Shown one piece after another: positions 5,171 through 45,180 of a stretch of DNA of 45,461 nt. Within the stretch, counting starts at the first letter, position 1. Each line of letters begins with the position of its first letter. Source of the DNA: a virus. The notes under the pieces are model-generated. The model was not told where the DNA came from. It searched no databases and saw nothing but the letters and a program-made list of their open reading frames with translations. Both the position numbers and the translations under genes were made by a program. Location: positions 1 through 45,461 of IMG/VR virus record IMGVR_UViG_3300030328_001397, one strand, 5' to 3'.

Positions 5171-5536
5171 ATGAAATTAGTTGAACAGTTGCAAGATGAC
5201 TTGCAAGAAAGAAAAGAGGCTTGGTGGGAATGGCACAAAGAAAACCCTCAAGTGTGGAAGAAGTTTGAAGAATACACTTTAGAGGCAATTGCCACAGGAA
5301 GAAAGCATTACTCTCATTGGGCGATCATTAATCGCATTAGGTGGCATAGTGAGATAGAGACTAACGGAGGAGAGTTCAAGATAAGTAATGACTATATAGG
5401 CTTCTATGCTCGTTTATTTCATGCTCGTTACCCTGAACACAATGACTTTTTTAGACTGAAACAGTTGAAGGAAGAGAAACTTATAGATGAATTAAAGGTT
5501 CAGGTTTACGACAGGGATTCTAGCTTTCTTTCTTAG
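5171..5536 (+). CDS. Conserved hypothetical early protein (121 aa)
   Basis: Resembles a protein common in phages of many hosts (from memory), with WKKFEEYTLEAIATGRKHYS, an aromatic-rich NRIRWHSEIET segment, and the distinctive NDYIGFYARLFHARYPEHND followed by FFRLK. It looks like an alpha/beta fold of about 95 residues plus a Lys/Glu-rich tail. A CTGGAGGTGTT ribosome site precedes the ATG. Function unknown. Its last 45 bases overlap the end of the convergent 2517-residue protein gene. Confidence 0.7.
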   Translation: MKLVEQLQDDLQERKEAWWEWHKENPQVWKKFEEYTLEAIATGRKHYSHWAIINRIRWHSEIETNGGEFKISNDYIGFYARLFHARYPEHNDFFRLKQLKEEKLIDELKVQVYDRDSSFLS

Positions 5537-8500
5537 TTCAGGAACGAAAGCTAGCCTTCTATCTCTTTCTAATTCCATTTCTCTAAGTTTGTCTGACTTG
5601 GCAATCACAGATATGTTTTCGTTTCTCATCAGCCTGTCTCTTCTCTTTCTCCAATTATCCAAGTATCTTTCTAAGGCTCTTACTTGACCCTTTATTCCCA
5701 TAACACCTTTCATATTGCTTCTGTAGGCTGATAGTTCATCAAAGCGTTGGGTTTCCTTGAGCGAATTAATCGTAGCTACTGCTCTATCTACTTCACTTCT
5801 AAGTTCATAGAATTGTTGTTGCAGTCCTCCCGCCTTTTCTGTGTCCAATAGAAGCCTATTAGCAAAGGGTAGTTGTTTGGCTAAATCAACATTGTTAGGA
5901 AGGATAGGTTCGCCTGTAGCACCACGAGTTAGGGTGTCTGCTAGTGCAAGTACATATCCTCCTAAAGTACCCGTATAACCTCTTAAAACGTGCTCTATCT
6001 TAGCGGGTGATATGTTAAACAGTTCACCGATTTCTTTGGCTAATTGGTTGGTAGTCGTTCTAGCTTGGAATCCAGGTTCTTTTTTAAGTTGATAGTAAGG
6101 AACAATGTCTTGTCCTGTGTAACTATTTCTATTACTGACTGCTTCAGCTAAAGGTTTAAGTATTTGCAAACCACCTGCGGGTTGTATAAATGGAAGATTT
6201 AAAGATGTCTCTAATTGACGACCTGTTGATGTTAATAATTCATCTACTGATTTTTGACTGAAAGCATCATCACCTAAAGTTAAATCAAAAACTCTTTCAG
6301 GTATAGCCTTAAACAACATACCTACTTCAAAAGGTATTGGTAGTTTGATTGAATAGTCAAAAGGTGTAGGTACTACCCAATTATCATCTCTGACTTCACG
6401 TTTTAGATTTCTGTATTCATCTGTATCGTGCACCATTAAATAGTATATGAGGGTGATAGACGTTAGTAATGAAGCATTGAGTGCTGCTTTTCTAAGTATT
6501 CTACTTTGTACATCTTGTAATGTTTCATTAGCTTGTAGTTTTTCTACAGCAGAATATTGACCAGTAAATGATCTATATAAAACATCTAAACCTTGTACTC
6601 TTGCATTTAAGAAAGGTATTGCAGATGTTATAACTCTAAATAAAGGGTCTTGTCCTCTTCTGCCAAAGTTAATTATTTCTAATGCCTGATAAGCAGCTTC
6701 TGATTGAGCTTGTGCTTCTGTGTATCCTTCATCTTTTAATTTTTTATGTACTGCTTCATATACCGCTAAACGAGTAGCTCCGTCTGATTTTGTAGTTAAA
6801 GCTCCTAGACCATCCCATAATTTAAAGAAAGCATCTTTAGCAGACATACCATTACTGGTTGTTATTGCTTGTTTTCTTAAAGTACGATCAATGTACTGTT
6901 TTACACTACCTTCATCATTAGAAAAATCATATCCACCTAAAACACCAAACTGTTCTAGTTCTTCCATGTCTCTAAACATATTAACTAAAGAGTCTTTGAC
7001 TGGCACAAAGTCAGCACCACTTGTTACAGCAGATGACAATGTATCTCTAAGTACGTTGACTACAACAAATCCAGGGTCACGAGTAACTGTATCTCTTAAT
7101 AATGAAGCTGGAAAAGCTAAAGCTCTTTGTATTGGTCCAGTACCTACACCACCTATACCTTGTATGCCTTCAACTAAATTTCTATCAACTTGATAGTGGT
7201 ATTTAATCCCTTCTCTAAAAACAAATATAGAATCAACTTTTCCTGCCTTTTCAGCCGAAATTGGTTTAGCTTCTTCGACTACTTCTAAATCTCTTATTAA
7301 TTTATTTAATCCATCATTTTTTAATGAAGCTGTAAGAATAGATAAAGAGTTTCTTGTTATTGCTTCAAGAGGATCAACATTCAATATATCTTTAGAACCT
7401 TCTAATTTGATACTTAAAGGATTATTTGGTAATGCACCACCCGCTATGGTTGGTGCAGTAATACCAGAATCATCTACCATTTCTCTATAAAAAGGATAAT
7501 ATGAAGATTGTTCTCTCCAAATTTCAGCCTGTCCTCTTGTATCTATTCCATATTGGTTTCCTACTCTAACTATTTCTTCTACACTTAATCCATTATTTGC
7601 TTCTGATAGTGCAATAAGATTTTTTATTTGTTCAGGGTCTAAAGTTATTTCACCTTTTTCTACTTTTTCTGCAAGTTCTTCTATTATTTGATTGTTAGAT
7701 TTGAATTTACTTAACAATCCTTTTTCTTCTGCAAAAGTAATTAATTCATTGTTCCATCTTTGATAAGCATCAAATACTTTTTTTACTTCAGGATATTGAG
7801 CTTCAATTTTATTTATAAGAGCAAGGTCAGCTTCTGTAATAGGTGAAGCAACTAATCTACCATTTTTATCAAATGTTTCTGTTCTTTTAAGAGCAGCATA
7901 AAACTTAAATATTCTTTCTAAATCTAGTTCAGGTCTTGAATAAAGAGGGGATAGTATTTCTATTAGTCCTCCGTCTTTACTTTTAATAACATTAGCTAAA
8001 GAGTCTTCTCCTTCTATACGACTATTTATAGTGCCTTTAGTGAGCATCTGTTGAAACAAACCTCTGGCTCTATCAGCTAATCTTAGTGCAGCCATAGTTG
8101 CAGTATCTGCTGTATTATTAGCCTGTCTTACTTCTTCATTCGTTTCAATAGCATTAACAATAGCTTTATCAACGGCATCTAATTTATCTATAAAGTTCTG
8201 TCTAAAGTTTCCAAAATAAGCACTTATGTTAGTAATAGGGTCTTTAGCTATTTCTACTAATCTTGCACCCCAAGATTTTTCTGGAGGCTTACCTTTACCA
8301 CCTGTTCTTTCTATGCCCTCTACTAAGTCAGCATCAACACCATCTAAGCTAGGTGCAGACCAAAGAGGTATATCATTAGGGGCTACAGATGAAAGGTCTT
8401 TATTAAACTCCAATGCAGCGTCTATAGCCACGTCTGACGCATTTAAATTGTAATAAGGTACTCCACCCCTAGGAGTCTGTCTTACTAGCTCCTCTACCTC

Positions 8501-11500
8501 TTCTACAGACCTTTTAAGTTTTACTTGTTCAGATGTTTTATTCTCACCTTGGAATCTTGTTCCTTCAGAAAATAAAGGTAGTTGTTCAGGTAAAGTAGAT
8601 TGTGCTAATTCATTTTGAATACTTTGAATTTCATTTTTAATTCTATTTATTCTGTCTCTATCTTGTTTAGCTATTCTTTCTGAAACTCTACCTCTTCCAT
8701 CAGCTTCAATACGTTCAGCATTGTAAAGTTGAGTTTCTAAATCTCTAAGTTTTAACTCTAAACCTTCTTTGCTATTTTCATCAATTGATTTATTAGCAAA
8801 ATCAACAGTATCAATTAACTCAGTATCAGTTTTACCTATTCTTGTTGTTGCTGCTCCTGTGTCAATAACATCACTTGCACTTTGTAAAAATGCAGATAAA
8901 GCCGTATTAGATTTTGCAGGTAAACCTAATATATTTCTTATTGATTGTACAAACTCACTCCAAGCATTTTTAGTTTTATAAGGTATAGCTTCTAAAAATT
9001 CTTGAAATTCTCTATTAGTTAAACCAAATGTCATAAATTCAGATAAATCCTTATCTCTTGATTTGCGTTGTGAGCCATTAACTCTATAGGTTTGATAATA
9101 ACTTTTCCAAGATTGATAATCTCCCGTTACACCTTTTATAACTCTTTCATTTGTTGGAAATTGATTGTCTACAAGAGTTGCTGCTAATTTTTTTATTGTT
9201 GTAGATTCTTTTAAGACTTCTTTTCTATATTCATTTCTTAATCTTTTAAATTCATTATATGAAGTTTCTGTTATTTCTTTAGTGCTCGCTGCCATTGCAT
9301 AATCATAAAAACGCTTTAAGTCTGCACCGACTTTTGTGTAATAGTCTTTTTTTTCTTCTATATATTCATTAACTTTATCTTGAACATTTTCTAAATCTTC
9401 TAAAGCTTTGATTGCTTTTTTACTTAATCTTAGTGGTGCTCGTACAGATGCAGGTAATGTTTTACCATCTATATATGCTTTGTAATCATTTATTGTGGTG
9501 AGAGATGCTTGATGTATAGCTTCATGTAATAAAGTTTCAAAATTAACTCCATTATCACTAAAACCATTGTAAATTGTTCTCTCTCTAATACTTTGTTGAG
9601 TATTATTAATTTTCATTGGCAATCTAGTACGATCTCTATAACGTATTTCTACTAGTCCATACGCACCACCTAAAGAACGACTTGTAAACTCTAAAGGAAA
9701 ATTAAAACCTCTTTTCTGTAGCTTTAGTAATGTTTCATAAGTTTTAGAAGCTATAATTTTATAATCTTCATTAGGTGAATTATCTTTCAACCACTTCATC
9801 ATTTTGACGGAATCACCTTCATAAAGTCCTATTTGTCTATTACTTCCTGCTTTTCTAATAGCTTTACTATTTAATAAACCATTAATAATAAATTGCCTGT
9901 CGTTTTCGTACTCTGCATTACTTAATTTTTGAGCGTCATATGGTGTTCCTTTTTCAACAGGATCAGGAGTTGGAGCAGGATCAGGAGCAGGTTCAGGTTC
10001 AGTTGGGTCTGGCTCTATAATAGGTTCGGGTAATGGTTCAGGTATAGGTAGTCTTTGTAACTCAGAAAGTTCTTGTGTGGTAACTATAGGATCGCCAGTA
10101 ATAACTCTAGTGGCTTCAGGTAAAGCTGTTTCTCTTTGCTCTATATCATCAGCTAAGTCACCTAAACCTCTTCTAGCTTCGCCTGTATCTAGCTCTCTTG
10201 TAGTTCTTATTTCTCCTCTAGCCCTAGCACCTATTCTTCCTTGTTCAATATCAGTAAATATATCAGATACATTTTGATATCCTGATAGACGCATTGCTTC
10301 ACCCATGCCTTTAAAGAAATTAACAATCTTATTAAATATGCCCTGTGATTTAGGTGGCATATTTTTTATATCTTCTCTAGCCTTAAACATTTCAGCAATA
10401 GCTTCTTCCACAAAGAATTCTTCTCTTTTTTCTTCTGTTAGTTCTCTACCTGCTAATGTAGGAGTATTAATATCTACACTTCTTTGATAGAAAGTTTTAT
10501 TTTTAAACTTATCATCAAATGATGCTGGAACTTTTTTGCTTTTTACTTGGTTACGAAGATAGTTATATTCTTTTTCATTAATTAAATCTTTGGCTCTCAA
10601 CGCATGAACCATCTCATGGTCAAGAACTCTATTTAATTTTTGTTGTATTTCTATTTCAGAAAGATTGCCGTCAGGATTAATTCTGTTTAAAGATAAAAAT
10701 ATTATGTCAGACTGTTTGTCATACTCTCCTTCTACTCCTCTGTCTTTAACCTGTCTAGGATCATAAATAAGTTCGTTGTCTTTTACTTGTCTTAATGTGC
10801 TAGCAGATAACAATTCATCACTTATAACTATACCTGTATCTTTTAAACCTCTTTCATTTAATATTCTTCGGGCTTCTTTAGCAAACTTATTAGTTCTACC
10901 TTCTTCTACTGCCTCACGATAATTAATAACTTTAGGTTCAACCTCTTCTGGAGGTAAAAGTTTTTCTTGTTTTACTCTTTCAGATTCTACTAACTGGTCA
11001 ATAATCTCTTGTGGTAATTTATTTTCTGCTTCAAGCTTGGCTCTAAACTCTTCTGGTGTTTGTCCAAAACTTTCAGCTCGCCTTGCAATATCAAACTCAA
11101 AGTTATCTCTAATTTTATATGTAACAAAATCTTCTTGTAATTTTGCTCTACCACTATTTTTTAAATCTTCTAAAAATATAGAAGCTTCTTGTATTGGTAA
11201 AAAAGAATTATCTTCAAAATTACCTTCATGATATTTAGCTTTTTTACCTTTATATCTATCAAGTAAAAATGTTTTAACATTATCTATATCAAATTCAGAT
11301 TTACCAACGCTAGCTACAAAATCAGCCATATCTTTAGCTGAGTATTCTCTATTTCTAAATTCAGGAAATTTAACTTTAGTATTAAACTTAGGCATTGCAT
11401 AAATCCTAGCTAATAAAAGTTCTTTTTGTCCTTTGCTCATTGAAGTAATTTGGCTATTACCTGTAAAAACTTCAGCAGCGTGCATAAATGCAGATGAAAT

Positions 11501-13045
11501 AATACTATCTGGGTCTATATTTTTAGAACCAAGCATAGATTTAAAAAACTTAGGAGTAGTATTAAGTTTTTGTTTACCAGCAGTTAAAGAAGGTTCACCA
11601 GATTTTTCTGCTTGTTTAAATACAGCTCGTGCCATACTTTCTGTCATTGTATTAAAATCTTTTTTAGTAAGAAGTTTTTTAGCTTCTTTCATAGTAAAGG
11701 TTTTATTTTTGTTTTCTTCTACAAAATTCTTTTTACCTTTATCTTTAAGTCTACTGTTATTAACAGCTATATCATTAGCTGTAACAGTTGTAGCTATAGG
11801 GTCTAATAAGGTTTGTCCTAATTCAAACGCAGCAGCACTATTAACATTACCTTGTAGGTAAAGCATATTTTCTAGTTGATTTTTTAACAAAGCATTGTTT
11901 TGTTTTGTTTTAAGCTTTTCAATACCTGTAACAGCATCAACCTGTGAAGGTGCTGTAGATATAATAGGATTGTCTGGTTGGTTTAAATCTAATATAGAAA
12001 AGCTTCCGTCAGCATTTTCTACATAATCTAAATTAATAGGGTCTGGTATGGATTCGGGGGCGGGAATGTTTGGAACATTAATTTGAGTTGGTTCTTGAAA
12101 TTCTGGAATAGTGCCTTGTTCAAGACCTAATTCTACTTTTTTTGTTTTTAATAATTCTTGTTTGTTTAAAGTTTCTCTTCTAGCTTTTTCTTCTGCATGA
12201 TAGTCTTTTATACCTTTTTTACCCATGCTAGTAACAACTAGATCAGCACCAGCACCAATGATGCCACCTATAGTAAACTCATCAAATAAACTTTCACCTA
12301 TGGGTAATTCTTCACTATACAAACCACGAGCAGTTAAGTCTTGCAATATACTTGCAGTTACCTCTTGACCGCCCTCAAATGCTCCTGATTTGAGTGCAGA
12401 TACTAATTGTTCTTTTGTAGATTTAGGGGCTGCTTTTGAAATTTTAGAAAATATATGTGCAACAGGTAATATTTCTGTAATACCTATAGTACCACCTAAT
12501 AGGGTGGCAGTCGTCTCTGTAAAACCACCAACATCTTCACCCATTTCTCTAGCCATATTTATACGATCAGCTTGTGCAGACATACCTGTCGGGATGGCTA
12601 ATGCTGCTGGTATTCCATATTGCCCAGTTTTTTGACCTACTGTGCCTGCTTTAGCTAAAGTGCTACCTAATTTTGCAGCACCTAAAAAAGGAACAAATGA
12701 TCCAATACCTTCACCTAGTTTTGTACTAAATTTATCTGCGTATCTAGGATCAGCAGCTAGTATAGAGTCTTCTCGTAATGATTTTTCTAAACCTCGTAAA
12801 CCTTTAAGGGCTGCACTATCATCACCAATATCAAATAAAGAAACTATACCTGTTGGTACAGACAAAGCTAAACTAGCAGCACCTCTAGGTATTGCTTTAC
12901 CAAACTCTACTGCTTGTTCTAAAGCAGAAGTTTGATCAATATCATCTCCATATCTGTCTTTTACTATACGAGCAAATCTTTCTCTTTGTGCAGGATCAGC
13001 AGGAATGTTATATTTTTTTCCGTCTGGATCAGTATATATACTCAT
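5492..13045 (-). CDS. Giant polyvalent virion protein (2517 aa) with two HExxH zincin motifs and LPD38-like region
   Basis: Probably packed in the virion and injected with the DNA. An N-terminal region rich in Gly/Ala and hydrophobic stretches (about 50-165 and 245-275) could interact with membranes. A first zincin-like domain has DHEMVHAL (His at about 810) followed by FFVEEAIAEMF; a Pro/Asp/Glu linker lies near 1000-1030; a second has LLHEAIHQ (His at about 1174) followed by a WSEFVQSIRNILGLP segment often seen after such peptidases. Charged coiled regions fill 1350-1600. Residues about 1980-2180, with RDPGFVVVNVLRDT and NFGRRG...PFLNARVQG, resemble the LPD38 polyvalent-protein domain. TAATG-coupled to the upstream gene and last in the late operon. 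Domain names are from memory. G+C rises sharply in the last 600 bases. Confidence 0.8.
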   Translation of the reverse strand: MSIYTDPDGKKYNIPADPAQRERFARIVKDRYGDDIDQTSALEQAVEFGKAIPRGAASLALSVPTGIVSLFDIGDDSAALKGLRGLEKSLREDSILAADPRYADKFSTKLGEGIGSFVPFLGAAKLGSTLAKAGTVGQKTGQYGIPAALAIPTGMSAQADRINMAREMGEDVGGFTETTATLLGGTIGITEILPVAHIFSKISKAAPKSTKEQLVSALKSGAFEGGQEVTASILQDLTARGLYSEELPIGESLFDEFTIGGIIGAGADLVVTSMGKKGIKDYHAEEKARRETLNKQELLKTKKVELGLEQGTIPEFQEPTQINVPNIPAPESIPDPINLDYVENADGSFSILDLNQPDNPIISTAPSQVDAVTGIEKLKTKQNNALLKNQLENMLYLQGNVNSAAAFELGQTLLDPIATTVTANDIAVNNSRLKDKGKKNFVEENKNKTFTMKEAKKLLTKKDFNTMTESMARAVFKQAEKSGEPSLTAGKQKLNTTPKFFKSMLGSKNIDPDSIISSAFMHAAEVFTGNSQITSMSKGQKELLLARIYAMPKFNTKVKFPEFRNREYSAKDMADFVASVGKSEFDIDNVKTFLLDRYKGKKAKYHEGNFEDNSFLPIQEASIFLEDLKNSGRAKLQEDFVTYKIRDNFEFDIARRAESFGQTPEEFRAKLEAENKLPQEIIDQLVESERVKQEKLLPPEEVEPKVINYREAVEEGRTNKFAKEARRILNERGLKDTGIVISDELLSASTLRQVKDNELIYDPRQVKDRGVEGEYDKQSDIIFLSLNRINPDGNLSEIEIQQKLNRVLDHEMVHALRAKDLINEKEYNYLRNQVKSKKVPASFDDKFKNKTFYQRSVDINTPTLAGRELTEEKREEFFVEEAIAEMFKAREDIKNMPPKSQGIFNKIVNFFKGMGEAMRLSGYQNVSDIFTDIEQGRIGARARGEIRTTRELDTGEARRGLGDLADDIEQRETALPEATRVITGDPIVTTQELSELQRLPIPEPLPEPIIEPDPTEPEPAPDPAPTPDPVEKGTPYDAQKLSNAEYENDRQFIINGLLNSKAIRKAGSNRQIGLYEGDSVKMMKWLKDNSPNEDYKIIASKTYETLLKLQKRGFNFPLEFTSRSLGGAYGLVEIRYRDRTRLPMKINNTQQSIRERTIYNGFSDNGVNFETLLHEAIHQASLTTINDYKAYIDGKTLPASVRAPLRLSKKAIKALEDLENVQDKVNEYIEEKKDYYTKVGADLKRFYDYAMAASTKEITETSYNEFKRLRNEYRKEVLKESTTIKKLAATLVDNQFPTNERVIKGVTGDYQSWKSYYQTYRVNGSQRKSRDKDLSEFMTFGLTNREFQEFLEAIPYKTKNAWSEFVQSIRNILGLPAKSNTALSAFLQSASDVIDTGAATTRIGKTDTELIDTVDFANKSIDENSKEGLELKLRDLETQLYNAERIEADGRGRVSERIAKQDRDRINRIKNEIQSIQNELAQSTLPEQLPLFSEGTRFQGENKTSEQVKLKRSVEEVEELVRQTPRGGVPYYNLNASDVAIDAALEFNKDLSSVAPNDIPLWSAPSLDGVDADLVEGIERTGGKGKPPEKSWGARLVEIAKDPITNISAYFGNFRQNFIDKLDAVDKAIVNAIETNEEVRQANNTADTATMAALRLADRARGLFQQMLTKGTINSRIEGEDSLANVIKSKDGGLIEILSPLYSRPELDLERIFKFYAALKRTETFDKNGRLVASPITEADLALINKIEAQYPEVKKVFDAYQRWNNELITFAEEKGLLSKFKSNNQIIEELAEKVEKGEITLDPEQIKNLIALSEANNGLSVEEIVRVGNQYGIDTRGQAEIWREQSSYYPFYREMVDDSGITAPTIAGGALPNNPLSIKLEGSKDILNVDPLEAITRNSLSILTASLKNDGLNKLIRDLEVVEEAKPISAEKAGKVDSIFVFREGIKYHYQVDRNLVEGIQGIGGVGTGPIQRALAFPASLLRDTVTRDPGFVVVNVLRDTLSSAVTSGADFVPVKDSLVNMFRDMEELEQFGVLGGYDFSNDEGSVKQYIDRTLRKQAITTSNGMSAKDAFFKLWDGLGALTTKSDGATRLAVYEAVHKKLKDEGYTEAQAQSEAAYQALEIINFGRRGQDPLFRVITSAIPFLNARVQGLDVLYRSFTGQYSAVEKLQANETLQDVQSRILRKAALNASLLTSITLIYYLMVHDTDEYRNLKREVRDDNWVVPTPFDYSIKLPIPFEVGMLFKAIPERVFDLTLGDDAFSQKSVDELLTSTGRQLETSLNLPFIQPAGGLQILKPLAEAVSNRNSYTGQDIVPYYQLKKEPGFQARTTTNQLAKEIGELFNISPAKIEHVLRGYTGTLGGYVLALADTLTRGATGEPILPNNVDLAKQLPFANRLLLDTEKAGGLQQQFYELRSEVDRAVATINSLKETQRFDELSAYRSNMKGVMGIKGQVRALERYLDNWRKRRDRLMRNENISVIAKSDKLREMELERDRRLAFVPELRKKARIPVVNLNL
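5520..5554. terminator. Inverted repeat at the convergence of the two operons
   Basis: CTAGCTTTC (5520-5528) and GAAAGCTAG (5546-5554) are perfect 9-bp inverted arms around a 17-base loop, which itself holds GTTC-AG-GAAC. It lies across the + strand stop codon and inside the 3' end of the - strand gene, where both transcripts should end. Neither side has a good U tract, so a bidirectional terminator or transcript-end hairpin is inferred, not shown. Confidence 0.5.
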
Positions 13046-21859: not shown

Positions 21860-22306
21860 TTAGACCTCAATCCATTCTTTACCTTCAAAAAGAAGTGCTT
21901 CTGCTTCTCTTCGTCTTATTAATCCTTGCAATGTCTGACCTCCTGCCTTATTCCATCTTTTAATTTGTGCAGGTACTGTATGATAATCACCTGCATTTAA
22001 AAGCTTTAACAAAGTAGATTCTCTTAAATTCGTTGGTCCTAGGTTATAAACCCAACAAACTAAAGCATCAAACTGACATTGATTTAAAGGTACTGTAACT
22101 AAATCATTAATATAACCTTCATACTCAGGCAATTCTTCTTGTAATAAATGTTCAGCTTCATCACGATTAATACTATCGCCTTCTTTTACATTCTTAATTG
22201 TGCCGTATCCAATTGTCCAAACACCTACACTATCTTGATATGCTTCTAGTTCGCAACCTTCAAATTTTTTAATTAACTCAATACCTTCTTGTGATATAAA
22301 ATTCAT
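21860..22306 (-). CDS. GH24 endolysin (T4/P22-type lysozyme)
   Basis: Cleaves peptidoglycan at lysis. The catalytic triad spacing E-x8-D-x5-T is intact: Glu16 in KKFEGCELEAYQD, Asp25, Thr31 in VWTIGYGT. The FDALVCWVYNLGP and LIRRREAEALLFEG blocks are also typical. At 148 residues it is full length. No signal peptide or signal-anchor is present, so it depends on a holin to cross the inner membrane. It overlaps the o-spanin gene by 4 bases, completing a lysis cassette. Confidence 0.93.
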   Translation of the reverse strand: MNFISQEGIELIKKFEGCELEAYQDSVGVWTIGYGTIKNVKEGDSINRDEAEHLLQEELPEYEGYINDLVTVPLNQCQFDALVCWVYNLGPTNLRESTLLKLLNAGDYHTVPAQIKRWNKAGGQTLQGLIRRREAEALLFEGKEWIEV

Positions 22307-22698
22307 TTTGTTTCCCCTTTATCTGATTTTGGTGTTGTTACAGTTTTATAATAAACTACAACTTCTTTTAACTCCGTTATATATCGTTTAAGTTCTTGCA
22401 TATTATATGCCATCACCTCATAGTCAGGAATTGTCATAGCTAGAAAAACCAACTCTCCCTCCTGTTTTTCTATTTTAGCTAACTGCTGATCTACATTTTC
22501 AGGTGTAATAGTAATCCACATAGGTTCACGCAAATCTATTTCCCTAGGCATAACAGGATGTGCTATTTGTCGTTCTATGGGTTTAGCTGATACTTGTATT
22601 TGTTTAGTTGGAATAAGACTGCAACTGCATATCGTCATCAAGACTATCAACTGTAGCACTAATCTTCTCGATGTCTTCCATAATGTGTTTAGTTCCAT
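22303..22698 (-). CDS. Outer-membrane spanin-type lipoprotein (o-spanin)
   Basis: Basic N-terminus (TLWKTSRRL), a hydrophobic core, then ICSC with Cys26 as the likely lipidated residue, making it an outer-membrane lipoprotein. The middle (REIDLREPMWITITPENVDQ, QEGELVFLAMTIPDYEVMA, LKRYITELKEVVVYY) matches the pattern I recall for Rz1-like proteins of marine and T4-like phages. The first 95 bases lie inside the i-spanin gene in another frame, the classic Rz/Rz1 overlap. It would join the i-spanin to fuse membranes in the last step of lysis. Confidence 0.75.
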   Translation of the reverse strand: MELNTLWKTSRRLVLQLIVLMTICSCSLIPTKQIQVSAKPIERQIAHPVMPREIDLREPMWITITPENVDQQLAKIEKQEGELVFLAMTIPDYEVMAYNMQELKRYITELKEVVVYYKTVTTPKSDKGETK

Positions 22699-22999
22699 TA
22701 TTTATTTTCCTTTGCATTTCTTCAGGGTCTGCAAGTATTTTAGCTGCTAACTCGTAGTTTTGTATAAACTCTGTATATCTATTTAACTCTCTTTGTGCAG
22801 CCTGACTTTTTAAATTAAGCTCATTTAACTGTGTTGTTTGTAATAGAAAGTCTTCTTGCAAACTTTCTATAGCTTCTTCTTGTGTAGCTATAGCACCTTC
22901 TAATGCCATGTTATTAGCTGTAAGTATTTGATTTTGGTTATATAAATAATAAATTAAAAATCCTAATACTATTATTATTCCTGCTAATGCTTGATTCAT
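22604..22999 (-). CDS. Inner-membrane spanin (i-spanin, Rz-like)
   Basis: One N-terminal helix (residues about 4-20, GIIIVLGFLIYYLY) followed by a long periplasmic coiled coil (NNMALEGAIATQEEAIESLQ through about residue 90) rich in Gln, Glu, Leu and Asn: the Rz architecture. The o-spanin gene starts within its last 95 bases. No cysteine is needed or seen. Confidence 0.8.
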   Translation of the reverse strand: MNQALAGIIIVLGFLIYYLYNQNQILTANNMALEGAIATQEEAIESLQEDFLLQTTQLNELNLKSQAAQRELNRYTEFIQNYELAAKILADPEEMQRKINNGTKHIMEDIEKISATVDSLDDDMQLQSYSN

Positions 23000-23229: not shown

Positions 23230-23574
23230 TTAGTTAGCTAAAGGGTTTTTACTGTCTTCTAATTTATCTATTTCAATCCAAAGTCTTTCAACATCACTAG
23301 TTAATGAAGCTATAGAAGCTTGCATTTTAGTATCATCAGGTATATCGAGACTATCTATTGATTTATTTATATATTCTACTGATGTTTCAATAGCTGCAAA
23401 TCGTTCTTCAATAACTTTTTGTGCATCTTCTGTATCTTCAACACCTCCAATTTTAGCTTCAAGATTTTCTAACCTATTAACATAAGTAGCCCCTGTATAA
23501 CCAAAACCAGCCAAAGTTCCTACTATTGACACTAAAGCTATTAATTGAGTTGTTTTATTTTCAAACCAATCCAT
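23230..23574 (-). CDS. Single-pass membrane protein with coiled coil (114 aa)
   Basis: One hydrophobic helix (about 8-31, TQLIALVSIVGTLAGFGYTG) followed by an acidic coiled coil to the C-terminus. The shape is like a second i-spanin or an antiholin. It ends one base before the next gene starts. Which lysis role it has, if any, cannot be read from sequence. Confidence 0.6.
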   Translation of the reverse strand: MDWFENKTTQLIALVSIVGTLAGFGYTGATYVNRLENLEAKIGGVEDTEDAQKVIEERFAAIETSVEYINKSIDSLDIPDDTKMQASIASLTSDVERLWIEIDKLEDSKNPLAN

Positions 23575-23583
23575 ATAATTCTC

Positions 23584-25902
23584 CTATAAATTTGGTTGTT
23601 GTTCTATTATATTATTCATTAAATTTATATTACTACTAGCTAAACTATAAAACCCACTTATATTATCATTTATATTTATATCTTTATAAATATCTTTAGG
23701 CTGATACCAAGTTTCTTGTTTAGGTATTTCATAAGTTTTATATACTTCAAATGCTGGAACATAACCCAAATATGCTACTAATGTTGATTGATCTGCGTAT
23801 TGTCCTGTTTCTGCCTGTTCTGTTTCTGCTTGTTCTTGTTGATCCTTAATATTATTAGCAATAATTTCATCTGCAATTTGATCTGCTTCACTTGCCGTCA
23901 TAACTCCTGAAACTGCTGTATCTATCTCACCTTGCATATTTTGAACTTGAACATCTGCCATAACTACTTGTGGATTACTATCAAATGTTGGCATAGGTGT
24001 TATAACTGTAGAAACACTACTAACTGTTTGTGAACTACCGCCTGACATACTGCTAGTATCTTGGCTTAAAGAAAGAATGGTATTTGTTTGAACATTAGCA
24101 GAAGCTATTTGATCAGACATACTAGGTGAACTGCTAGTGCTTATACCACCTCCTGTTACAGAAGAACTTACAGAACTACTATTTATATTGCCAGTACCAC
24201 TACTATTATTGTTTCCACCTGAATATCCTGAATTAGAATTGCTTGAAGCATTACTATAAGATGCCGTTCTTATAGATTGTCCGACAACATTTAACATAGT
24301 TGATGTTATGCCACCACTTGAAGTTGTTTCTTCTGCAACTAATTCTAATTCTTCTTCAACAACTTCTTCTTCTCTTTCCTCTATTGCAACTCTTTCTTCT
24401 GCAAACTGTTCTTCTATTTCTTCAAATACTTCTTCTACCACTTCTTCTTCAAAAATTTCTTCTTCTGCATAAAGTTCTTCTTCTACCTGCTCTTCTCTTC
24501 TTTCTTCTGCTAACTCTTCTCTTACTTCTTCTTCAAACCATTCATCTAGCTCTTCAATGCTTTCAAATTCTATAAAAGTATTAATTTGTTCAAAATCCTC
24601 TACTAAAACTGTTTCTTGTAATATAAATTCTTCTATAAGTTCTTCGCTTGGATTTATTGTAATTACATCATTTCTATCAAATTCATCATAAGAAAATAGA
24701 TGCTCTGGTTCTTCAAATATTTGTATATCATAAACGTCATCTATTATGTTGAAATCTGGTAATGGATCAAAGTCTCCAACAAAAGTTTCTTCAAAATCAA
24801 ATTCTATTAAGCCTTCCTCAAACTCAAAAATTAATGATTGTTCGTTTATTTCATATTCTTCTATGTAAGAAAAAGCATCTTCTTCATACCCAAAGTCATC
24901 ATTAAAATTAAAGTTACCACCTTGCATATCATCTTGATCTTGATAACCATAATCAAATTCTTCTTCAATGTAATATGCTACAGATGCTTCTTGTGTATAA
25001 CCAGCACAAAAGGGTGCATATTGTGGGTCTTCATCGCATTGTTGATCATCATAAGCTTCCCAATATAAAGGACATGACTGACTATAAAGCGAATCTAAAT
25101 TACATTGTTGAGTTAAATAAGCTGCTGCATAGCCTGAACAAGATTCATTGTTTAAAGGATTGCTACAATCTATTGCGTTACCTGAACCTTCTCCATATAA
25201 ACTACCACCATTTTCTAACAATGTATTAAATGTAGTATTGTTCCAATTTGTATTTACACATGAACTAGAATTAGTTGTGCCTGTGTTACATTCATCATGG
25301 TATAAATAAGTATAACTTTCTGAAGTACCACTACCTATTTCACCTATTAATACGTCATGGTTAATTACGTCTAAAGCACTATACCTGTACTCAAATGTAT
25401 TATTTGACCAAAGAATTATTTCAAAACTGTTATCTGTGTTACTTCTATTAAACTCTCTTAAATCATACCAACCAAAAATCATTTTTGTAGAATCACCCCA
25501 AGATTTGAGCCTAGAATTATTGTCTCTTATTAAATCTGTCCAAAATGGATAAAGAGTGTAAGTGTGTTGTCCTGTTAATGGGTCTGGTGTGTAATCATTG
25601 CAATATGTACTGTTAGTCAAAAAATGCAAACAACCATTAGTTGCCATTCTAGCTTGATTAAAAGTTTGTCCATAAAAAGTAAAATTAAATGATAAATCTA
25701 TAGCTGGAGAGACTCCATCATCTGCAACTGAATAAGCCAACTCCCCTTCAAAATTATTAGCATTTGTTTGTAAATGATATAAAGATTGATTAGCTTCATA
25801 AATGTATTCAGCTTTAAGTTGATTTACTCCTAATGCAAATAACCCCGATAAAATTAAACTGCCTATAAAACACAAAGTTTGCCATTCATTTTTACGAGGC
25901 AT
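23584..25902 (-). CDS. Exported nidogen-like protein with Glu-rich and Ser/Gly-rich tails (772 aa)
   Basis: N-terminal signal sequence (about 1-32, basic MPRKNEW then LCFIGSLILSGLFALGV, cleavage near KA-EY). Residues about 40-210 have the nidogen-like (NIDO) pattern: LSFNFTFYGQTFNQARMATN, then YPFWTDLIRD and FEIILWSNNTFEYRYSAL. Three Cys-rich units of the QQC-x-D...C-x-x-Y type follow (about 243-305). A region of nearly pure Glu, Val and Arg spans about 457-524, and a Ser/Gly/Asn-rich region about 534-617. Known marine phages carry NIDO proteins of unclear role. The signal sequence suggests export from the infected cell membrane. Confidence 0.65.
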   Translation of the reverse strand: MPRKNEWQTLCFIGSLILSGLFALGVNQLKAEYIYEANQSLYHLQTNANNFEGELAYSVADDGVSPAIDLSFNFTFYGQTFNQARMATNGCLHFLTNSTYCNDYTPDPLTGQHTYTLYPFWTDLIRDNNSRLKSWGDSTKMIFGWYDLREFNRSNTDNSFEIILWSNNTFEYRYSALDVINHDVLIGEIGSGTSESYTYLYHDECNTGTTNSSSCVNTNWNNTTFNTLLENGGSLYGEGSGNAIDCSNPLNNESCSGYAAAYLTQQCNLDSLYSQSCPLYWEAYDDQQCDEDPQYAPFCAGYTQEASVAYYIEEEFDYGYQDQDDMQGGNFNFNDDFGYEEDAFSYIEEYEINEQSLIFEFEEGLIEFDFEETFVGDFDPLPDFNIIDDVYDIQIFEEPEHLFSYDEFDRNDVITINPSEELIEEFILQETVLVEDFEQINTFIEFESIEELDEWFEEEVREELAEERREEQVEEELYAEEEIFEEEVVEEVFEEIEEQFAEERVAIEEREEEVVEEELELVAEETTSSGGITSTMLNVVGQSIRTASYSNASSNSNSGYSGGNNNSSGTGNINSSSVSSSVTGGGISTSSSPSMSDQIASANVQTNTILSLSQDTSSMSGGSSQTVSSVSTVITPMPTFDSNPQVVMADVQVQNMQGEIDTAVSGVMTASEADQIADEIIANNIKDQQEQAETEQAETGQYADQSTLVAYLGYVPAFEVYKTYEIPKQETWYQPKDIYKDININDNISGFYSLASSNINLMNNIIEQQPNL

Positions 25903-27010
25903 TGTTCCATTCTTTTTTACATTGTTTAGTAGATTTGTTCTTTTTAGTAAAAACTTTTCTTACACCGCTTACAACATCTCTATTGTAACCTGTATCATTA
26001 GGGTTTAATCCTTTCTTGCAGTTTGCTATCCAATTTGCTTTGTATTCTTTTGCATCAGGTCTTTGTGCTGGATTATTGTTCCATCCCTCTGTTGCTTCTT
26101 TACCTATTTTTCCCATATAAGGACATGGAGTTCCTGCCATTTCCATAGCTTTAAATACTCTAGTATCTTGGCAAAGTATAGATACAGCAGCTACTTTCAT
26201 GCCCATATCATATATGTATTTGCTAAGTTTAAGTCTTTCACAATTTTCATCTTTTATTGTTCGCCCACCTGACAAACCAAACACTTGACCTTGAAATGCA
26301 CCTGAGACACCAGTTGTACAAAGGTCTTGGCTATAACTCATAATAGAAGGAGCAATAGCAGAAGCTGGTGGTGCTTCAGTTTTGATATTTTGGTTAATAG
26401 TCTGTTCTGATTTACTCTGATTAATATTTCTATTTGTGTTTTCTGAAACAGTATTATTGTTGTTTTGGTTTACGTTGTTTGTTTGTACGTTTGATTCAGA
26501 CTTACTTTCGTTTTTGTTAATGTTTGTATTATTGCTTGTAGAAGTCGAATTGTTAGTATTATTTGTAGTCGTAGTGTTATTAACAGTTTGATTAACTGTT
26601 GAATTTACTGTCGATTCAGATGTAGATGTAGATGTATTAACATTAGTATTTGCATTTGTATTACTTGTTGTAGCTGTCGAATTAGCTGTTGTTGTATTTA
26701 CATTTGTATTTGTAGCTGTCGAAGTATTTACATTTGTGTTCGAGTTAGTTGCAGTAGATGTTGAAGTATTTGTATTTGTTGCAGTTGTAGTATTCGTATT
26801 TGTATTAGTATTAGTATTGGTATTGGTGTTTGTATTTGTGTTTGTATTGGTATTATTTGTAGTCGTAGTATTTGTTGTATTTAAATTGTTATTTTCACAA
26901 TACTGCGTACCATTAGCACAGCCTGTTCCAGTCTGATCTGGTGAATCAGAATAAACATAAGCATTAAAAAAAACTAATGCAAATACTATGTAACAAATAT
27001 TTTTATACAT
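25892..27010 (-). CDS. Exported Asn/Thr-rich protein with conserved Cys-rich C-terminal domain (372 aa)
   Basis: Signal sequence at 1-21 (YKNICYIVFALVFFNAYVYS). Residues about 40-215 are almost only Asn, Thr and Ser in alternation, turning Gln/Glu/Lys-rich towards the end. The C-terminal 150 residues, from PPASAIAPSIMSYSQDLCTT, contain SGGRTIKDENCERLKLSKYI and DMGMKVAAVSILCQDTRVFK plus GTPCPYMGKIG, a block I recall as conserved in marine phages, with about six Cys. It overlaps the nidogen-like gene by 11 bases. The 19 bases before its start are only A and T, with no ribosome site. Probably acts with its neighbour outside the inner membrane. Confidence 0.65.
   Translation of the reverse strand: MYKNICYIVFALVFFNAYVYSDSPDQTGTGCANGTQYCENNNLNTTNTTTTNNTNTNTNTNTNTNTNTNTNTNTTTATNTNTSTSTATNSNTNVNTSTATNTNVNTTTANSTATTSNTNANTNVNTSTSTSESTVNSTVNQTVNNTTTTNNTNNSTSTSNNTNINKNESKSESNVQTNNVNQNNNNTVSENTNRNINQSKSEQTINQNIKTEAPPASAIAPSIMSYSQDLCTTGVSGAFQGQVFGLSGGRTIKDENCERLKLSKYIYDMGMKVAAVSILCQDTRVFKAMEMAGTPCPYMGKIGKEATEGWNNNPAQRPDAKEYKANWIANCKKGLNPNDTGYNRDVVSGVRKVFTKKNKSTKQCKKEWNNAS
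26786..26856 (-). repeat. Six-base-period repeat tract encoding Asn-Thr alternation
   Basis: About eleven degenerate copies of a six-base unit (GTATTN on the + strand, with a few third-base changes) lie inside the Asn/Thr-rich gene. The frame is kept if unit number changes. Looser copies extend to both sides. Confidence 0.75.
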
Positions 27011-27029: not shown

Positions 27030-27419
27030 TTATTTTTTAGAAAAGTCACTCTTTGACTTATGGCTATTAGTATATAACCCAAACCAAGCTGCACCTGCTC
27101 CTACTACTATTGAAATTAAACCTGATTGTTCAAATGTTGGATCAGGCAAATCCATGAACCAGAATGTAGTGTAATAAAGCAGATACATATAAACACCTAA
27201 GAAAGCTCTAGGAATAATTCTCCAACTATCAATAGCTTCTGCTACAAATATAAGTTTCTGAAAAGGATTACGATTGTATTCATCTTCTAACTCCCTAATC
27301 CTGTCTTTAAGTTCAGACTTTTCTTGAAGAAGTTGCATGAATTTATTTAAATCAATTTCAACTTCATTTCTATCCATATCACCACCAAATCTACTTGATG
27401 GATATCGTTCTTCTGTCAT
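27030..27419 (-). CDS. Holin candidate, two membrane helices (129 aa)
   Basis: An acidic coiled N-terminal half (about 20-50) precedes two membrane helices at about 68-89 (RIIPRAFLGVYMYLLYYTTF) and 99-117 (GLISIVVGAGAAWFGLYTNS), with a basic C-terminal tail. I recall this pair of helices, including VVGAGAAWFGLY, from class II holin-like proteins of marine phages. The lysozyme lacks its own export signal, so a holin is required and this is the best candidate. Confidence 0.65.
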   Translation of the reverse strand: MTEERYPSSRFGGDMDRNEVEIDLNKFMQLLQEKSELKDRIRELEDEYNRNPFQKLIFVAEAIDSWRIIPRAFLGVYMYLLYYTTFWFMDLPDPTFEQSGLISIVVGAGAAWFGLYTNSHKSKSDFSKK

Positions 27420-27429
27420 AGCTTACTCC

Positions 27430-27852
27430 TTAATTAACAGGCTCAAACAACCCATTATCTATTAATATTTGTCTGTTTTCTAAATGTTCTTTTTCTACTT
27501 CATCTTTTGATTGTCCATAATAAGCAACTGCAAGATGACATTGAATCATCATTTGATTAATATTTTTTCCATCTACAACAACATCACCTAAAACTCTTCC
27601 ATACTTACCTTTTGAATCTTTAAGTTTTGTTTGTATAACAATTTTTTTTCCTATTTCTATCGCTTCTTTTAAAAAAGCCCCAGCCATTTTTCCTCTAGCT
27701 TTCTCATCAAGATTACGAGTGCGTGACTCGGGAGTATCAATGCCATATAAACGAACACGGCACTTATGAAGAATATCAAAGCCAAGGTCCAAAACAACAT
27801 CAATGGTATCTCCATCAACAACTCTTTCAACTTTACAACTATATTCATACAT
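27430..27852 (-). CDS. Staphylococcal nuclease-like (SNase) thermonuclease
   Basis: Calcium-dependent sugar-nonspecific nuclease fold, 140 residues. All catalytic residues align: Asp15 in VVDGDTIDV, Arg34, Asp39, Thr40 and Glu42 in RLYGIDTPE, and Arg86 in KYGRVLGD. There is no signal peptide, so it acts in the cytoplasm or in the virion. Its place in the late operon between structural and lysis genes argues against simple early host-DNA breakdown; nucleotide salvage late in infection or an injected nuclease are options. Confidence 0.88.
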   Translation of the reverse strand: MYEYSCKVERVVDGDTIDVVLDLGFDILHKCRVRLYGIDTPESRTRNLDEKARGKMAGAFLKEAIEIGKKIVIQTKLKDSKGKYGRVLGDVVVDGKNINQMMIQCHLAVAYYGQSKDEVEKEHLENRQILIDNGLFEPVN

Positions 27853-28091
27853 TATCTTTTTCCTTTATGTAATCCGTGTTTTGCGTGTTGTTTGCCTTTT
27901 CTAGTTGCTTCACGTTTTTTTCTGTTAGCTCTAGCAAGTTTACTTCTACCTTTAGATGTAGACTTTAATCTTTGTATTTGTGCTTTAGGTGCATATACTT
28001 CACCTGTTTCAGAAGATTTTTTACCACTAGGAGTAGTCCATTTTTCTCCTGTCCATTTTTTCAAACTTCTTTGAGATTTTTTTAATGGCAT
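27852..28091 (-). CDS. Small basic protein, PLKKSQ.SLKKWT family (79 aa)
   Basis: Starts MPLKKSQRSLKKWTGEKWTT then PSGKKSSETGEVYAPK, like a DUF5872-type protein (from memory). The rest is Lys/Arg/His-rich (KGKQHAKHGLHKGKR at the end), so it should bind nucleic acid. Its start overlaps the stop of the upstream gene. One of several small basic proteins in the late operon; DNA compaction in the head or host nucleoid binding is possible. Confidence 0.6.
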   Translation of the reverse strand: MPLKKSQRSLKKWTGEKWTTPSGKKSSETGEVYAPKAQIQRLKSTSKGRSKLARANRKKREATRKGKQHAKHGLHKGKR

Positions 28092-28771
28092 TATTCTTCC
28101 TCTATTTGTTCACTATATAAATTGTTGAAAGTTGTTAAAGGATCAAGATAACTTTCGTGTCCTTCTGCTGAGTGGATGTGTTGTGATGGAGCAAAATCAG
28201 GTGGACCTTCTCCAGTAACCCATAAAGCAGGACTAGTAGCTCTTACTCTATTATTAGGTAAAGCAACTATATTGCCTTTCCATTCACAGTCTTCAGTTAT
28301 GTATATGACATGAGATTGTTTATGTTGTGCAGGACAATCAGCGATAGAATTATTAGTGTAATCTACAGTAAATAAATATTTACCCTGATAAAATTGATTG
28401 TTAATTTTGCATATCCAAGGACTGGAACTTACTCTATCCATAACTATTACAGAGTGATCTCTGGCTTCACAATCCCAAGGTTGAGCTAAATGGTCTTCCA
28501 TAGGTAATGCCCATTCTGCTACAGGTATATCTGCTACAAGAGCTTGTATTGGCATCCTAGCCCACATTGCACCACCATGTATATTAGACTCATCATCTTC
28601 AGCTTCACATCCAGTAAAAACTACTTGAAAACTTAGTGATCTATCTGGAATAGTATTAACAGCAATAGCTATAGCGTGTAAGAATTCTCCATGATATCTT
28701 TGATGATTTACTGTAAATTCTTTCCTAACCCAACATTTAAAATGCGGTATGTTGCTTATTAAATAAGACAC
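28091..28771 (-). CDS. Conserved marine-phage structural-type protein (226 aa)
   Basis: I recall near-identical proteins in uncultured marine phages: SYLISNIPHFKCWVRKEFT, HGGAMWARMPIQALVADIPV, WICKINNQFYQGKYLFTVDY, HKQSHVIYITEDCEWKGNI. It is rich in Trp, His and Cys, with no known domain and no signal sequence. Neighbours are small membrane and basic proteins. Function is unknown; virion accessory is the usual guess. Confidence 0.6.
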   Translation of the reverse strand: MSYLISNIPHFKCWVRKEFTVNHQRYHGEFLHAIAIAVNTIPDRSLSFQVVFTGCEAEDDESNIHGGAMWARMPIQALVADIPVAEWALPMEDHLAQPWDCEARDHSVIVMDRVSSSPWICKINNQFYQGKYLFTVDYTNNSIADCPAQHKQSHVIYITEDCEWKGNIVALPNNRVRATSPALWVTGEGPPDFAPSQHIHSAEGHESYLDPLTTFNNLYSEQIEEE

Positions 28772-29617: not shown

Positions 29618-32245
29618 TTATTCTCCGTTTAATTTATTTTCTAATTTTTCGACTTTTGCCGAAAGTTCTTGTACTGCTTTAATTAATGGATGCACAAACA
29701 TCTCTTGTGAAATACCTTGTATTCCATCTTCTTCACCTTGAAACCATCCACCAAAATCTGTAATGTTATGTTTGTTTAAAGCCGCTTCAACTTCTTGTGC
29801 TATTAAACCATACATTTTAGAATCGTGTTGTCTTTCTGTTTCTTCAGGATCATAGTCGGGTAAAGAAGAATCAATATCAGATTTAGCTTTCCATTTAAAA
29901 GTAACAGGGTTTAAATCGTTTATAAAATCTAATCCACAATCTGTATTGTCTGTTATTTCATCTTTATATCTTTCATCTGATACTCTTGTCCATGAAGCAT
30001 TAGAATCAAAATTATTATGTACTCGGTTATTTCCAGTACCCCTACCAAATGTAAAAGTCGTAGCATCACCTACACTTTTAGTATCAAATCCCATAACAAT
30101 TTGATAATTAGAGTTACCACCATAAGATTCAGTTTGATAACCTACAAAAGTATTTCCAATTCCTGTAGTTAAGTCCTCACCTGATTCATTACCTACAAAT
30201 ACATTACCTGCACCTGTTGTAGCATCTTCACCTGCACGTTCTCCTAAAGCAGTTTGACCATAACCAGTAGTGTTTCCTTTTAAAGCATCTTTACCAACAC
30301 CTGAATTACCATAACCTGTAGTGTTTGCTATTAAAGCACTATAACCAACAGCACTATTATCATTTGAGGTGGTACTTAATGCTAAAGAAAAATTACCTAT
30401 TGCGGTGTTTTGAGTTCCTGTAGTATTAGTAGTAAGCGATTCTTTGCCAACTGCAACATTATGGTCGGCTGTAGTGTTTGCATCTAACGCATCTCTACCA
30501 ATAGCCGTGTTACTTGCTCCTGTAGTATTTGCGTTCATAGCAGCAGCACCTACTATTGTATTGTCTGACCCTGATGTATTTGCAGCGAGAGCAGAATCTC
30601 CAACTACAGTATTAGTGTTACCAGTACAAGCAGCGTTCATAGAACCTTGACCTATAGATATATTTTGGTCTCCTGTGGTTATACCACCACCACCATTAGC
30701 ACCGATAGTTACATTATAAGAACCTGTTGTAATAGCATCACCAGCTTGATAACCCAGTGAAGTATTTTGAGTACCTGTAGTGTTTGCACCTAAAGAAATA
30801 TAACCTACCGCAGTATTATTTGCTCCAGTTGTGTCTGAGGTTAAAGCATAAGCACCGAAAGCAGCATTTCTACCACCTTCTGTTGTTGCTAACATAGCAT
30901 CTGTTCCAAATGCAGCGTTTTCTTGTGCAGTTGTACTAGCGTTTAACACTCTATAACCCATGCCTGTGTTATAACTAGCTGTAGCCATCGTACCTAAAGC
31001 ACCATGACCAAAACCTGAGTTTTGTGTTCCTGTTGTATTAGCGTCTAGACTGTTATATCCAAAAGCATTATTCGATGCACCTGTTGTATTTGCACCTAAA
31101 GCATTTTCACCAAAAGCGTTATTGTAAGCCGCAGTTGTATTTGAATCTAATGCTGCTCTACCTACTGCTGTATTTGACGCTCCTGTAGTATTCGCTCCAA
31201 GTGCTGCTTGACCCACCGCAGTATTGTTTGACGCAGTTGTATTTGCATCTAGTGCTTGTGCACCCACCGCAGTATTATCTGCTCCCGTAGTATTTGTTAG
31301 CATAGCTTGGTAACCGACTGCGGTATTTGTTCCCGCAGTAGTGTTGTTACCTAAAGAACCTTGACCGACTGCTACATTTTCTGACCCTGTTGTATTAGCA
31401 TTTAAAGATGTTTGACCAACTGCTACATTACTGTCACCAGTAGTTAAAGCCGCAAAGACATCAACACCTACACCTGTATTATAGTTTGCGGCATCTATAG
31501 TACCTGTAGCATTATCGCCAAACATTATTGAAGAAGTACCAAACGCTTTGTAATTTAGTGCTGAACCATTAATAGTTAGTGCATCTGTTTCTGTAGTTCC
31601 GTCTACATCTAGATCACCATTAAAATCTGCATTACCAGCTAGAGTTAAGGTAGAAGCCATATCAACTGCTCCGTCAATATCTACTACGTCTAGGTTAGAT
31701 GTGCCGTCTACGTCTAAGTCTCCGTTAAAATCACCGTTACCTGTAAGTGTTAAGTCTCCACCTATTGAAGCATCATCTGTAACTGTTAAATCGTCTTGTA
31801 CTTTTAGGTCTACAGCAGAAATACTAGCTAGTGCATCTACCATAGCAGCACCAGAACCAGCACCATCAGAATAAACAATCTTAGTATCACCAGCAGGTAT
31901 AGTTATGCTTGCACCTGAACCTTGACTTATAACTATGTTTTGCGAACCACTTGTTGCATTTTCTATAAACCAAAGTTTAGATACTGTGTTTGGACCAATC
32001 GTTATAGTACAGGCTGAATCTAATGTTCCTGTATATTTTAAGAATATTGATCTACCAGGATCAGTTGCTCCATCAGCTATAGTGGTAGTATGCGTATCAG
32101 CATTAGTAGTTATAGCTTCTGTGCCATAGCTGAATGCTTCTGCTATTAATTCTAAATTTGTGTTTGTAACTGTTCCCCAAGTTCCTGACGCATCACCTGT
32201 CGCCATTTCATTGAGTCTTAAATCATTAACGTATGTACTAGCCAT
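29618..32245 (-). CDS. Tail fibre with 17-residue repeats and S74 self-cleaving chaperone (875 aa)
   Basis: Receptor-binding candidate. Residues 1-140 (STYVNDLRLNEMATGDASGT) form a virion-attachment region seen in other marine phage fibres. Two LTLxGNxDFNGDLDVDGT units (about 165-225) lead into 26 uninterrupted 17-residue units of the form NTAVGxxALxxNTTGxx, a YadA-head-like left-handed trimeric coil. The C-terminus (about 754-875) is a Peptidase S74 intramolecular chaperone: SDERYKDEI holds the cleavage Ser/Lys region, then KMYGLIAQEVEAAL, and a terminal coiled coil. It trims itself off once the trimer folds. ACGAGGAAAA is the ribosome site. Confidence 0.88.
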   Translation of the reverse strand: MASTYVNDLRLNEMATGDASGTWGTVTNTNLELIAEAFSYGTEAITTNADTHTTTIADGATDPGRSIFLKYTGTLDSACTITIGPNTVSKLWFIENATSGSQNIVISQGSGASITIPAGDTKIVYSDGAGSGAAMVDALASISAVDLKVQDDLTVTDDASIGGDLTLTGNGDFNGDLDVDGTSNLDVVDIDGAVDMASTLTLAGNADFNGDLDVDGTTETDALTINGSALNYKAFGTSSIMFGDNATGTIDAANYNTGVGVDVFAALTTGDSNVAVGQTSLNANTTGSENVAVGQGSLGNNTTAGTNTAVGYQAMLTNTTGADNTAVGAQALDANTTASNNTAVGQAALGANTTGASNTAVGRAALDSNTTAAYNNAFGENALGANTTGASNNAFGYNSLDANTTGTQNSGFGHGALGTMATASYNTGMGYRVLNASTTAQENAAFGTDAMLATTEGGRNAAFGAYALTSDTTGANNTAVGYISLGANTTGTQNTSLGYQAGDAITTGSYNVTIGANGGGGITTGDQNISIGQGSMNAACTGNTNTVVGDSALAANTSGSDNTIVGAAAMNANTTGASNTAIGRDALDANTTADHNVAVGKESLTTNTTGTQNTAIGNFSLALSTTSNDNSAVGYSALIANTTGYGNSGVGKDALKGNTTGYGQTALGERAGEDATTGAGNVFVGNESGEDLTTGIGNTFVGYQTESYGGNSNYQIVMGFDTKSVGDATTFTFGRGTGNNRVHNNFDSNASWTRVSDERYKDEITDNTDCGLDFINDLNPVTFKWKAKSDIDSSLPDYDPEETERQHDSKMYGLIAQEVEAALNKHNITDFGGWFQGEEDGIQGISQEMFVHPLIKAVQELSAKVEKLENKLNGE
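30155..31480 (-). repeat. 26 tandem 51-bp coding repeats in the tail fibre
   Basis: Twenty-six consecutive units of 17 codons, all in phase with no indel, run from the NTGVG unit to the NVFVG unit; a partial unit (NTFVGYQ) follows below 30155. Conserved positions are Asn1, Gly5, Leu/Met9, Thr13-14 and Gly15. The units differ enough in DNA to have been kept by protein selection rather than by recent copying. Confidence 0.9.
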
Positions 32246-45130: not shown

Positions 45131-45180
45131 ACTTACTATGTAGTATATACCCACTAAGTAGATACTTCTTAAATTGAAAA

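Follow-up and report, generated by a model that had tools for sequence, protein, structure and literature searches.

Genomic context of the A-B-C genes

The sequence analyzed, referred to below as the window, is a whole 45.5-kb record (IMG/VR IMGVR_UViG_3300030328_001397) that comes from a tailed marine phage. Its minus strand carries the terminase gene (43634-45154) together with the portal, head protein, tail-fiber-like, and virion genes. The terminase is 58 to 59% identical to those of 023Pt_psg01 and pelagiphage HTVC027P and 52% identical to that of HTVC023P, which makes SAR11 or a related bacterium plausible as the host of the window phage. HTVC027P, the nearest phage by terminase, gave no match to gene A described below.

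On the same strand, the late operon includes gene A (25892-27010), gene B (23584-25902), and gene C (23230-23574), for which we infer late expression from gene position. The original prediction had singled out A and B as two adjacent genes, and both open reading frames lie exactly where it placed them and are conserved over many loci. Its description of a pair was right about this adjacency but stopped short of the full unit, a trio that C completes in 107 of 112 loci. Outside the unit, the neighbors on the minus strand are a membrane protein of phrog_10198 (27030-27419), putatively a holin judging by its hydrophobic pattern, an i-spanin (phrog_739; 22604-22999), an o-spanin (phrog_812; 22303-22698), both assigned by PHROG matches, and a GH24 lysozyme (PF00959; 21860-22306) matched by both Pfam and PHROG. 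The spanin region (22303-22999) is compact: the last 95 nt of the i-spanin gene are shared with the o-spanin gene, which is read in another frame.

Several other minus-strand genes of the window were noted. A staphylococcal-nuclease-type gene (PF00565, phrog_452; 27430-27852) lies amid the late and lysis genes, and its location differs between relatives. A phrog_3704 gene, labeled as a ferredoxin among host-takeover genes, sits in the late operon (28091-28771), and a relative of it is found directly 3′ of C in HTVC033P. The tail-fiber-like protein (29618-32245) has many NTTG/NTAVG-type repeats and a C-terminal part resembling a tail spike (phrog_4636), and a 2,517-aa protein (5492-13045) has its PHROG matches, phrog_9854 and phrog_18222, both of unknown function, confined to the last quarter.

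Gene A encodes a predicted exported protein with an Asn/Thr spacer

Gene A (P0002), the window member of the 56-member family A2, encodes a predicted exported protein of 372 aa with a spacer ahead of a C-terminal, Cys-paired domain. Residues 1 to 21 (26948-27010) are a rule-based predicted signal peptide. The spacer, residues 40 to 212 (26375-26893), is predicted to be unstructured (pLDDT of about 30 to 45) and shows the Asn/Thr alternation that had been noticed in the sequence, with 34% Asn, 33% Thr, and an Asn autocorrelation at lag 2 of z = 4.8 against shuffles. The same measure gave z values of 4.9 to 8.5 in six other relatives with long spacers and no alternation against shuffles in two relatives with short spacers. 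In one relative (L171:1419-3011, plus strand), the spacer extends to approximately 400 residues of repeats such as NVNQNINSGTMTNINQNT and looks like a repeat array able to grow and shrink.

The C-terminal domain, residues 225 to 332 (26015-26338), is modeled as a beta-hairpin and helices with pLDDT mostly above 80 to 95, is 38 to 57% identical in isolates, and has the four cysteines Cys231, Cys257, Cys280, and Cys296. Cys280 and Cys296, in the LCQD and TPCP motifs, were both present in 142 distinct sequences and both missing in 12, and no sequence had only one of them, a count inflated by shared ancestry. This pattern is what a disulfide bond would give, and it fits an oxidizing compartment. 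The domain had no match in the PDB (best Foldseek E value of 0.8; best VIA Z score of 3.5), and its matches were uncharacterized viral proteins only. In PHROGs v4, phrog_20531 matches residues 141 to 337 with an E value of 6.3e-16. Seven relatives of A (those of HTVC115P, L173, L174, L177, L178, L183, and L185) end in a hydrophobic tail, which suggests that A may be anchored in the inner membrane with its domain in the periplasm.

At least 598 candidate IMG/VR stretches encode a relative of the A domain, so that A, if exported as predicted, belongs to an exported module that is common in ocean phages. One relative of A (phrog_20531) lies in Achromobacter phage phiAxp-2 (L194:44598-45155, minus strand), where an exported-looking protein of 185 aa adjoins a second small exported-looking protein (45216-45710). 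We recognized no B or C among its neighbors. The host is in culture, and this phage could be a tractable system.

Gene B encodes a modular adhesin-like protein with differing heads

Gene B (P0001) encodes a predicted exported, modular, adhesin-like protein of 772 aa belonging to the 57-member family A3, with 190 relatives among the candidate IMG/VR stretches. It had no match in PHROGs v4, and searching named phages directly with B gave none either. A rule-based predicted signal peptide (residues 1 to 31; 25810-25902) is followed by a head predicted to be a beta-sandwich (residues 32 to 204; 25291-25809; strands with pLDDT of about 75 to 86) and by Cys repeats of the C..GY..AY..QQC type (residues 205 to 305; 24988-25290), whose eight cysteines lie at 205 to 299 and are mostly invariant in A3. 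Next comes an acidic, Glu-rich stretch of 240 residues (306 to 545; 24268-24987) with 28% Glu, low pLDDT, and some helix, and then a stretch rich in Ser, Thr, Asn, and Gly (546 to 650; 23953-24267) with 31% Ser and a conserved SSSPS.SDQ segment. The Cys-rich parts of both proteins and the two biased stretches of B thus agree with what had been read from the sequence. In contrast, the nidogen-like domain proposed for B was not recovered, the NIDO model PF06119 being silent across the record at an E value of ≤10 and also in hmmscan at ≤1.

The head is related to a different protein. A profile of 57 B proteins matches, over profile positions 9 to 165, the N terminus of RemA (PDB 8gl6_D) with an E value of 4.1e-10. 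The whole-protein model of B gave weak all-beta matches only (best Z score of 5.2), and RemA was not among the structure matches listed, so the relation of the head to RemA rests on sequence. Conservation of the head is good among members of the window's clade (median identity of 0.73).

The C-terminal domain of B (residues 651 to 772; 23587-23952) is common to B proteins with other heads, namely those of L173, L174, L180, L184, and their relatives, as hhalign aligned it to the L173/L180/L184 group with a probability of 99.6% and an E value of 1e-24. Yet another head type is found in the B proteins of HTVC033P, HTVC202P, Baldr, and uvMED AP013540, which are 56 to 60% related to each other. The heads of some of these other pelagiphages may be carbohydrate-binding-like, as hinted by a weak match of AP013540 B to Pfam CBM_4_9 at an E value of 0.009, below the cut-off. 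The AP013540 gene is named putative carbohydrate binding domain protein, and its product begins with a signal-peptide-like sequence. We take the HTVC033P-type proteins as B on the basis of their position, signal peptide, acidic stretch, and A and C partners. With hhalign, we could not establish that the C-terminal parts of window-type and HTVC033P-type B proteins are homologous (27% probability against an intermediate group and 1.2% directly), and an iterated search that joined the two types had drifted and was not relied on.

Purifying selection and predicted export

Leaving the signal peptides aside, each segment of A and B had a dN/dS ratio of about 0.01 to 0.2 when the window was compared with close relatives (L001, L007, L009, L011, and L002), indicating purifying selection. 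The ratio was also low in the Asn/Thr spacer of A (0.03 to 0.08) and the Glu-rich stretch of B (0.06 to 0.17), so these low-complexity parts are selected as protein rather than being idle DNA repeats.

Both window proteins had been expected to carry signal sequences, and both passed a home-made rule, distinct from SignalP, that scores the h-region, charge, and an AXA-type cleavage site. Among their relatives, 178 of 183 A proteins and 141 of 160 B proteins were positive, far above the shuffled N termini (23 of 183 and 16 of 160, respectively), and only 6 of the 50 window genes passed, including A, B, and both spanins. Sec export of A and B is predicted on this basis. We saw neither a lipobox nor a known outer-membrane translocation signal in the cassette proteins, so the complex may stay periplasmic rather than reach the cell surface.

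These features bear on whether A and B could instead be structural or adsorption proteins of the virion, their hydrophobic N termini not being working signal peptides. The two genes do lie within the late operon, between the tail-fiber-like gene and other virion genes. However, signal-peptide features recur in both families, the cysteines of A co-vary, the genes are linked to the membrane protein gene C, and the genome position of the cassette varies, so we consider a virion role highly improbable, the least likely of the readings weighed here. Predicted export, a disulfide-like Cys pair, and a surface-type binding domain together make action on the host envelope the better reading.

Gene C completes a conserved cassette

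Gene C starts 9 nt past the end of B and, according to the sequence pattern of its relatives, encodes a 114-aa protein with an N-terminal transmembrane helix, a coiled coil, and a C-terminal NPLAN. The transmembrane helix was found in all 118 relatives and an NPL C terminus in 102 of them, whereas the flanking charges leave the topology of C undecided. Its best PHROG match was phrog_937, "hemolysin" (E value of 1e-4), with no spanin family listed. PADLOC gave no defense match for A or B, and a JetC defense match to C was rejected as a match of the coiled coil only.

We counted every distinct A locus for which 3.6 kb or more of downstream sequence was available, with MW202481 and CRP-207 entered by hand; A was followed by an adjacent large B in 112 of 112 and also by C in 107. 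In at least two of the five loci scored as lacking C (L178 and CRP-207), the script overlooked a C-like gene with an NPL end. Loci fetched with B had their genes in the order A, B, C, and A and B, which overlap by 11 nt in the window, overlapped in all 75 loci measured. Cassettes consisting of A, a large predicted exported B, and a C-like gene occur in the pelagiphages HTVC115P, HTVC033P, HTVC202P, HTVC023P, Baldr, and the myophage Mosig and in the roseophage CRP-207, and uvMED AP013540 likewise has all three genes; in the spring-water contig MW202481, A and B are present and C was not recognized. The carriers further include many uncultured marine contigs. Matches in metagenome-assembled genomes carry mixed taxa, archaea included; they are probably misbinned phage contigs, and for this reason we drew no hosts from them. 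A plasmid match covering 18% of a low-complexity query was set aside.

The three genes also vary together. When loci are compared pair by pair, the identities of A, B, and C correlate with each other at r = 0.74 to 0.78, and with those of the putative holin at 0.32 to 0.51 and the spanins at 0.24 to 0.56, the exception among the lysis neighbors being the lysozyme, which correlates with B at 0.75; these values are descriptive, because the pairs are not independent. In 25 of 165 pairs in which A, B, and C were all at least 80% identical, a neighboring lysis gene was less than 60% identical. Spanin pairs are swapped in this way among close relatives, as between L001 and the window, whose A-B-C genes are 87 to 91% identical beside spanins of 25 to 29%. 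From the co-variation and the gene overlap, we infer that the three proteins form a complex.

The neighborhood raises the question of whether a periplasm-spanning A-B-C complex is a lysis accessory that helps to break or detach the outer membrane with the holin, spanins, and lysozyme, its head attaching either to peptidoglycan or to the outer membrane on its inner side. Of 36 testable loci with window-type cassettes, 34 have recognizable lysis genes close by, the cassettes of HTVC033P, HTVC023P, and MW202481 have genes for a lysozyme, an amidase, or an M15 peptidase in their vicinity, C is laid out like an i-spanin, and the identities of B track those of the lysozyme. Against this, spanins and a lysozyme are already encoded elsewhere in the window, the neighboring spanins are swapped while A-B-C stays, and the cassette adjoins the terminase in HTVC202P, Baldr, and AP013540. 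To our knowledge, an adhesin head is not a part of any lysis system. We therefore regard a lysis role as rather unlikely, although it comes next after the adhesin reading set out below.

A possible envelope-anchored adhesin

The cassette probably serves to put a sticky assembly of proteins into the envelope of a cell about to burst. Tentatively, we favor a phage-encoded adhesin complex of A, B, and C that would be exported by Sec, anchored in the envelope, and attached to the host surface late in infection, where it would mask receptors on the cell and its debris. B would be the adhesin, with a ligand-binding head on a stalk of Cys repeats and the acidic stretch, held via its conserved C-terminal domain; A would be a small disulfide-bonded partner with an extended Asn/Thr spacer, and C the membrane anchor. 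At the end of infection, the head would bind a host-surface ligand, either a glycan or a receptor, and masking of receptors on the infected cell and debris could prevent sibling phages from being re-adsorbed and exclude other phages. The ligand and the purpose of the complex are conjecture.

The excess of signal peptides, the perfect co-variation of the A cysteines, the RemA match, the swapped heads, the linkage and co-variation of A-B-C, and the hydrophobic tails of A were all counted in favor of this masking adhesin. So was the name of the AP013540 B gene, putative carbohydrate binding domain protein, which is exactly the one borne by the commonest nameable genes of marine phage hypervariable islands (PMC3909814). 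We counted against masking that the head is well conserved and not hypervariable as an arms-race masker might be, that the cassette shows no signal for an outer-membrane route, that charges do not settle the topology of C, and that the lysis neighbors fit a lysis role.

The same exported proteins might instead stick cells, debris, or virions together, perhaps with the Asn/Thr spacer forming fibers. The selected alternating pattern, the adhesin head of B, and a precedent in pelagiphages of this type, for which curli secretion genes were reported and sibling capture was proposed as their purpose (PMC9599517), are in line with such clumping. Yet CsgG was found in none of 26 cassette-bearing records, many of which may be incomplete, with positive controls; curlin repeats (PF07012) were found neither in the window at an E value of ≤10 nor in the A proteins of L171, L172, and L180; and the spacer is predicted to be unstructured and is nearly absent in many pelagiphages. 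A curli identity was rejected on these searches, and clumping appears improbable.

The original prediction had offered coating the host surface, blocking receptors, aggregation, or control of release as functions; action on the envelope is favored over a virion role, but no one of these purposes was singled out. The RemA match and the carbohydrate-binding-like heads fit coating, masking, or clumping, and a role in release would suit the location next to the holin, spanin, and lysozyme genes equally well. A broader and more doubtful version of the masking adhesin is a three-protein envelope machine, in which an inner-membrane base of A and C would present an interchangeable B head on or across the outer membrane of a dying cell and so alter what the surface and debris of that cell can bind, the whole being carried as one unit by phages, not otherwise related, that infect SAR11 and other bacteria.

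Isolates with SAR11 hosts carry the cassette. Should the cassette mask receptors or release adhesive material, phage loss to debris, the prevention of co-infection, and the release of protein by SAR11 lysis could change. The shared gene name further suggests that exported proteins of the host envelope may make up part of a gene class so far interpreted as serving host recognition by virions (PMC3909814).

Comparison with known systems

We found no paper describing the cassette or giving the virion proteome of a carrier in a search covering mainly openly accessible literature. The existing record of A is phrog_20531 in PHROGs v4, a family of unknown function that includes the A proteins of the window, pelagiphages, roseophage CRP-207, and Achromobacter phage phiAxp-2, but without the B and C partners. 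RemA, whose N-terminal domain is related to the B head, is a 1,436-residue surface adhesin of the gliding machinery of Bacteroidota, from Flavobacterium johnsoniae, and in the profile search the rest of B was unrelated to it. The pelagiphage curli (T8SS) module (PMC9599517) is likewise a multigene unit of exported proteins spread across phage families, but it is built of other proteins, no CsgG or curlin repeats having been found with the cassette. The Rz/Rz1 spanins resemble C in its layout of a membrane helix and a coiled coil, and in the adjacency of their genes, whereas the window phage has a separate matching spanin pair and C matches no spanin profile.

The T5 protein Llp and lambdoid Cor are exported phage proteins that block a receptor on the infected cell. 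They are small single lipoproteins, without an adhesin head or a three-gene unit, and are compared with the cassette only for the way it may work. Phage-encoded exported proteins that alter the host envelope are of a known kind, whereas the three-gene unit and its breadth appear to be new.
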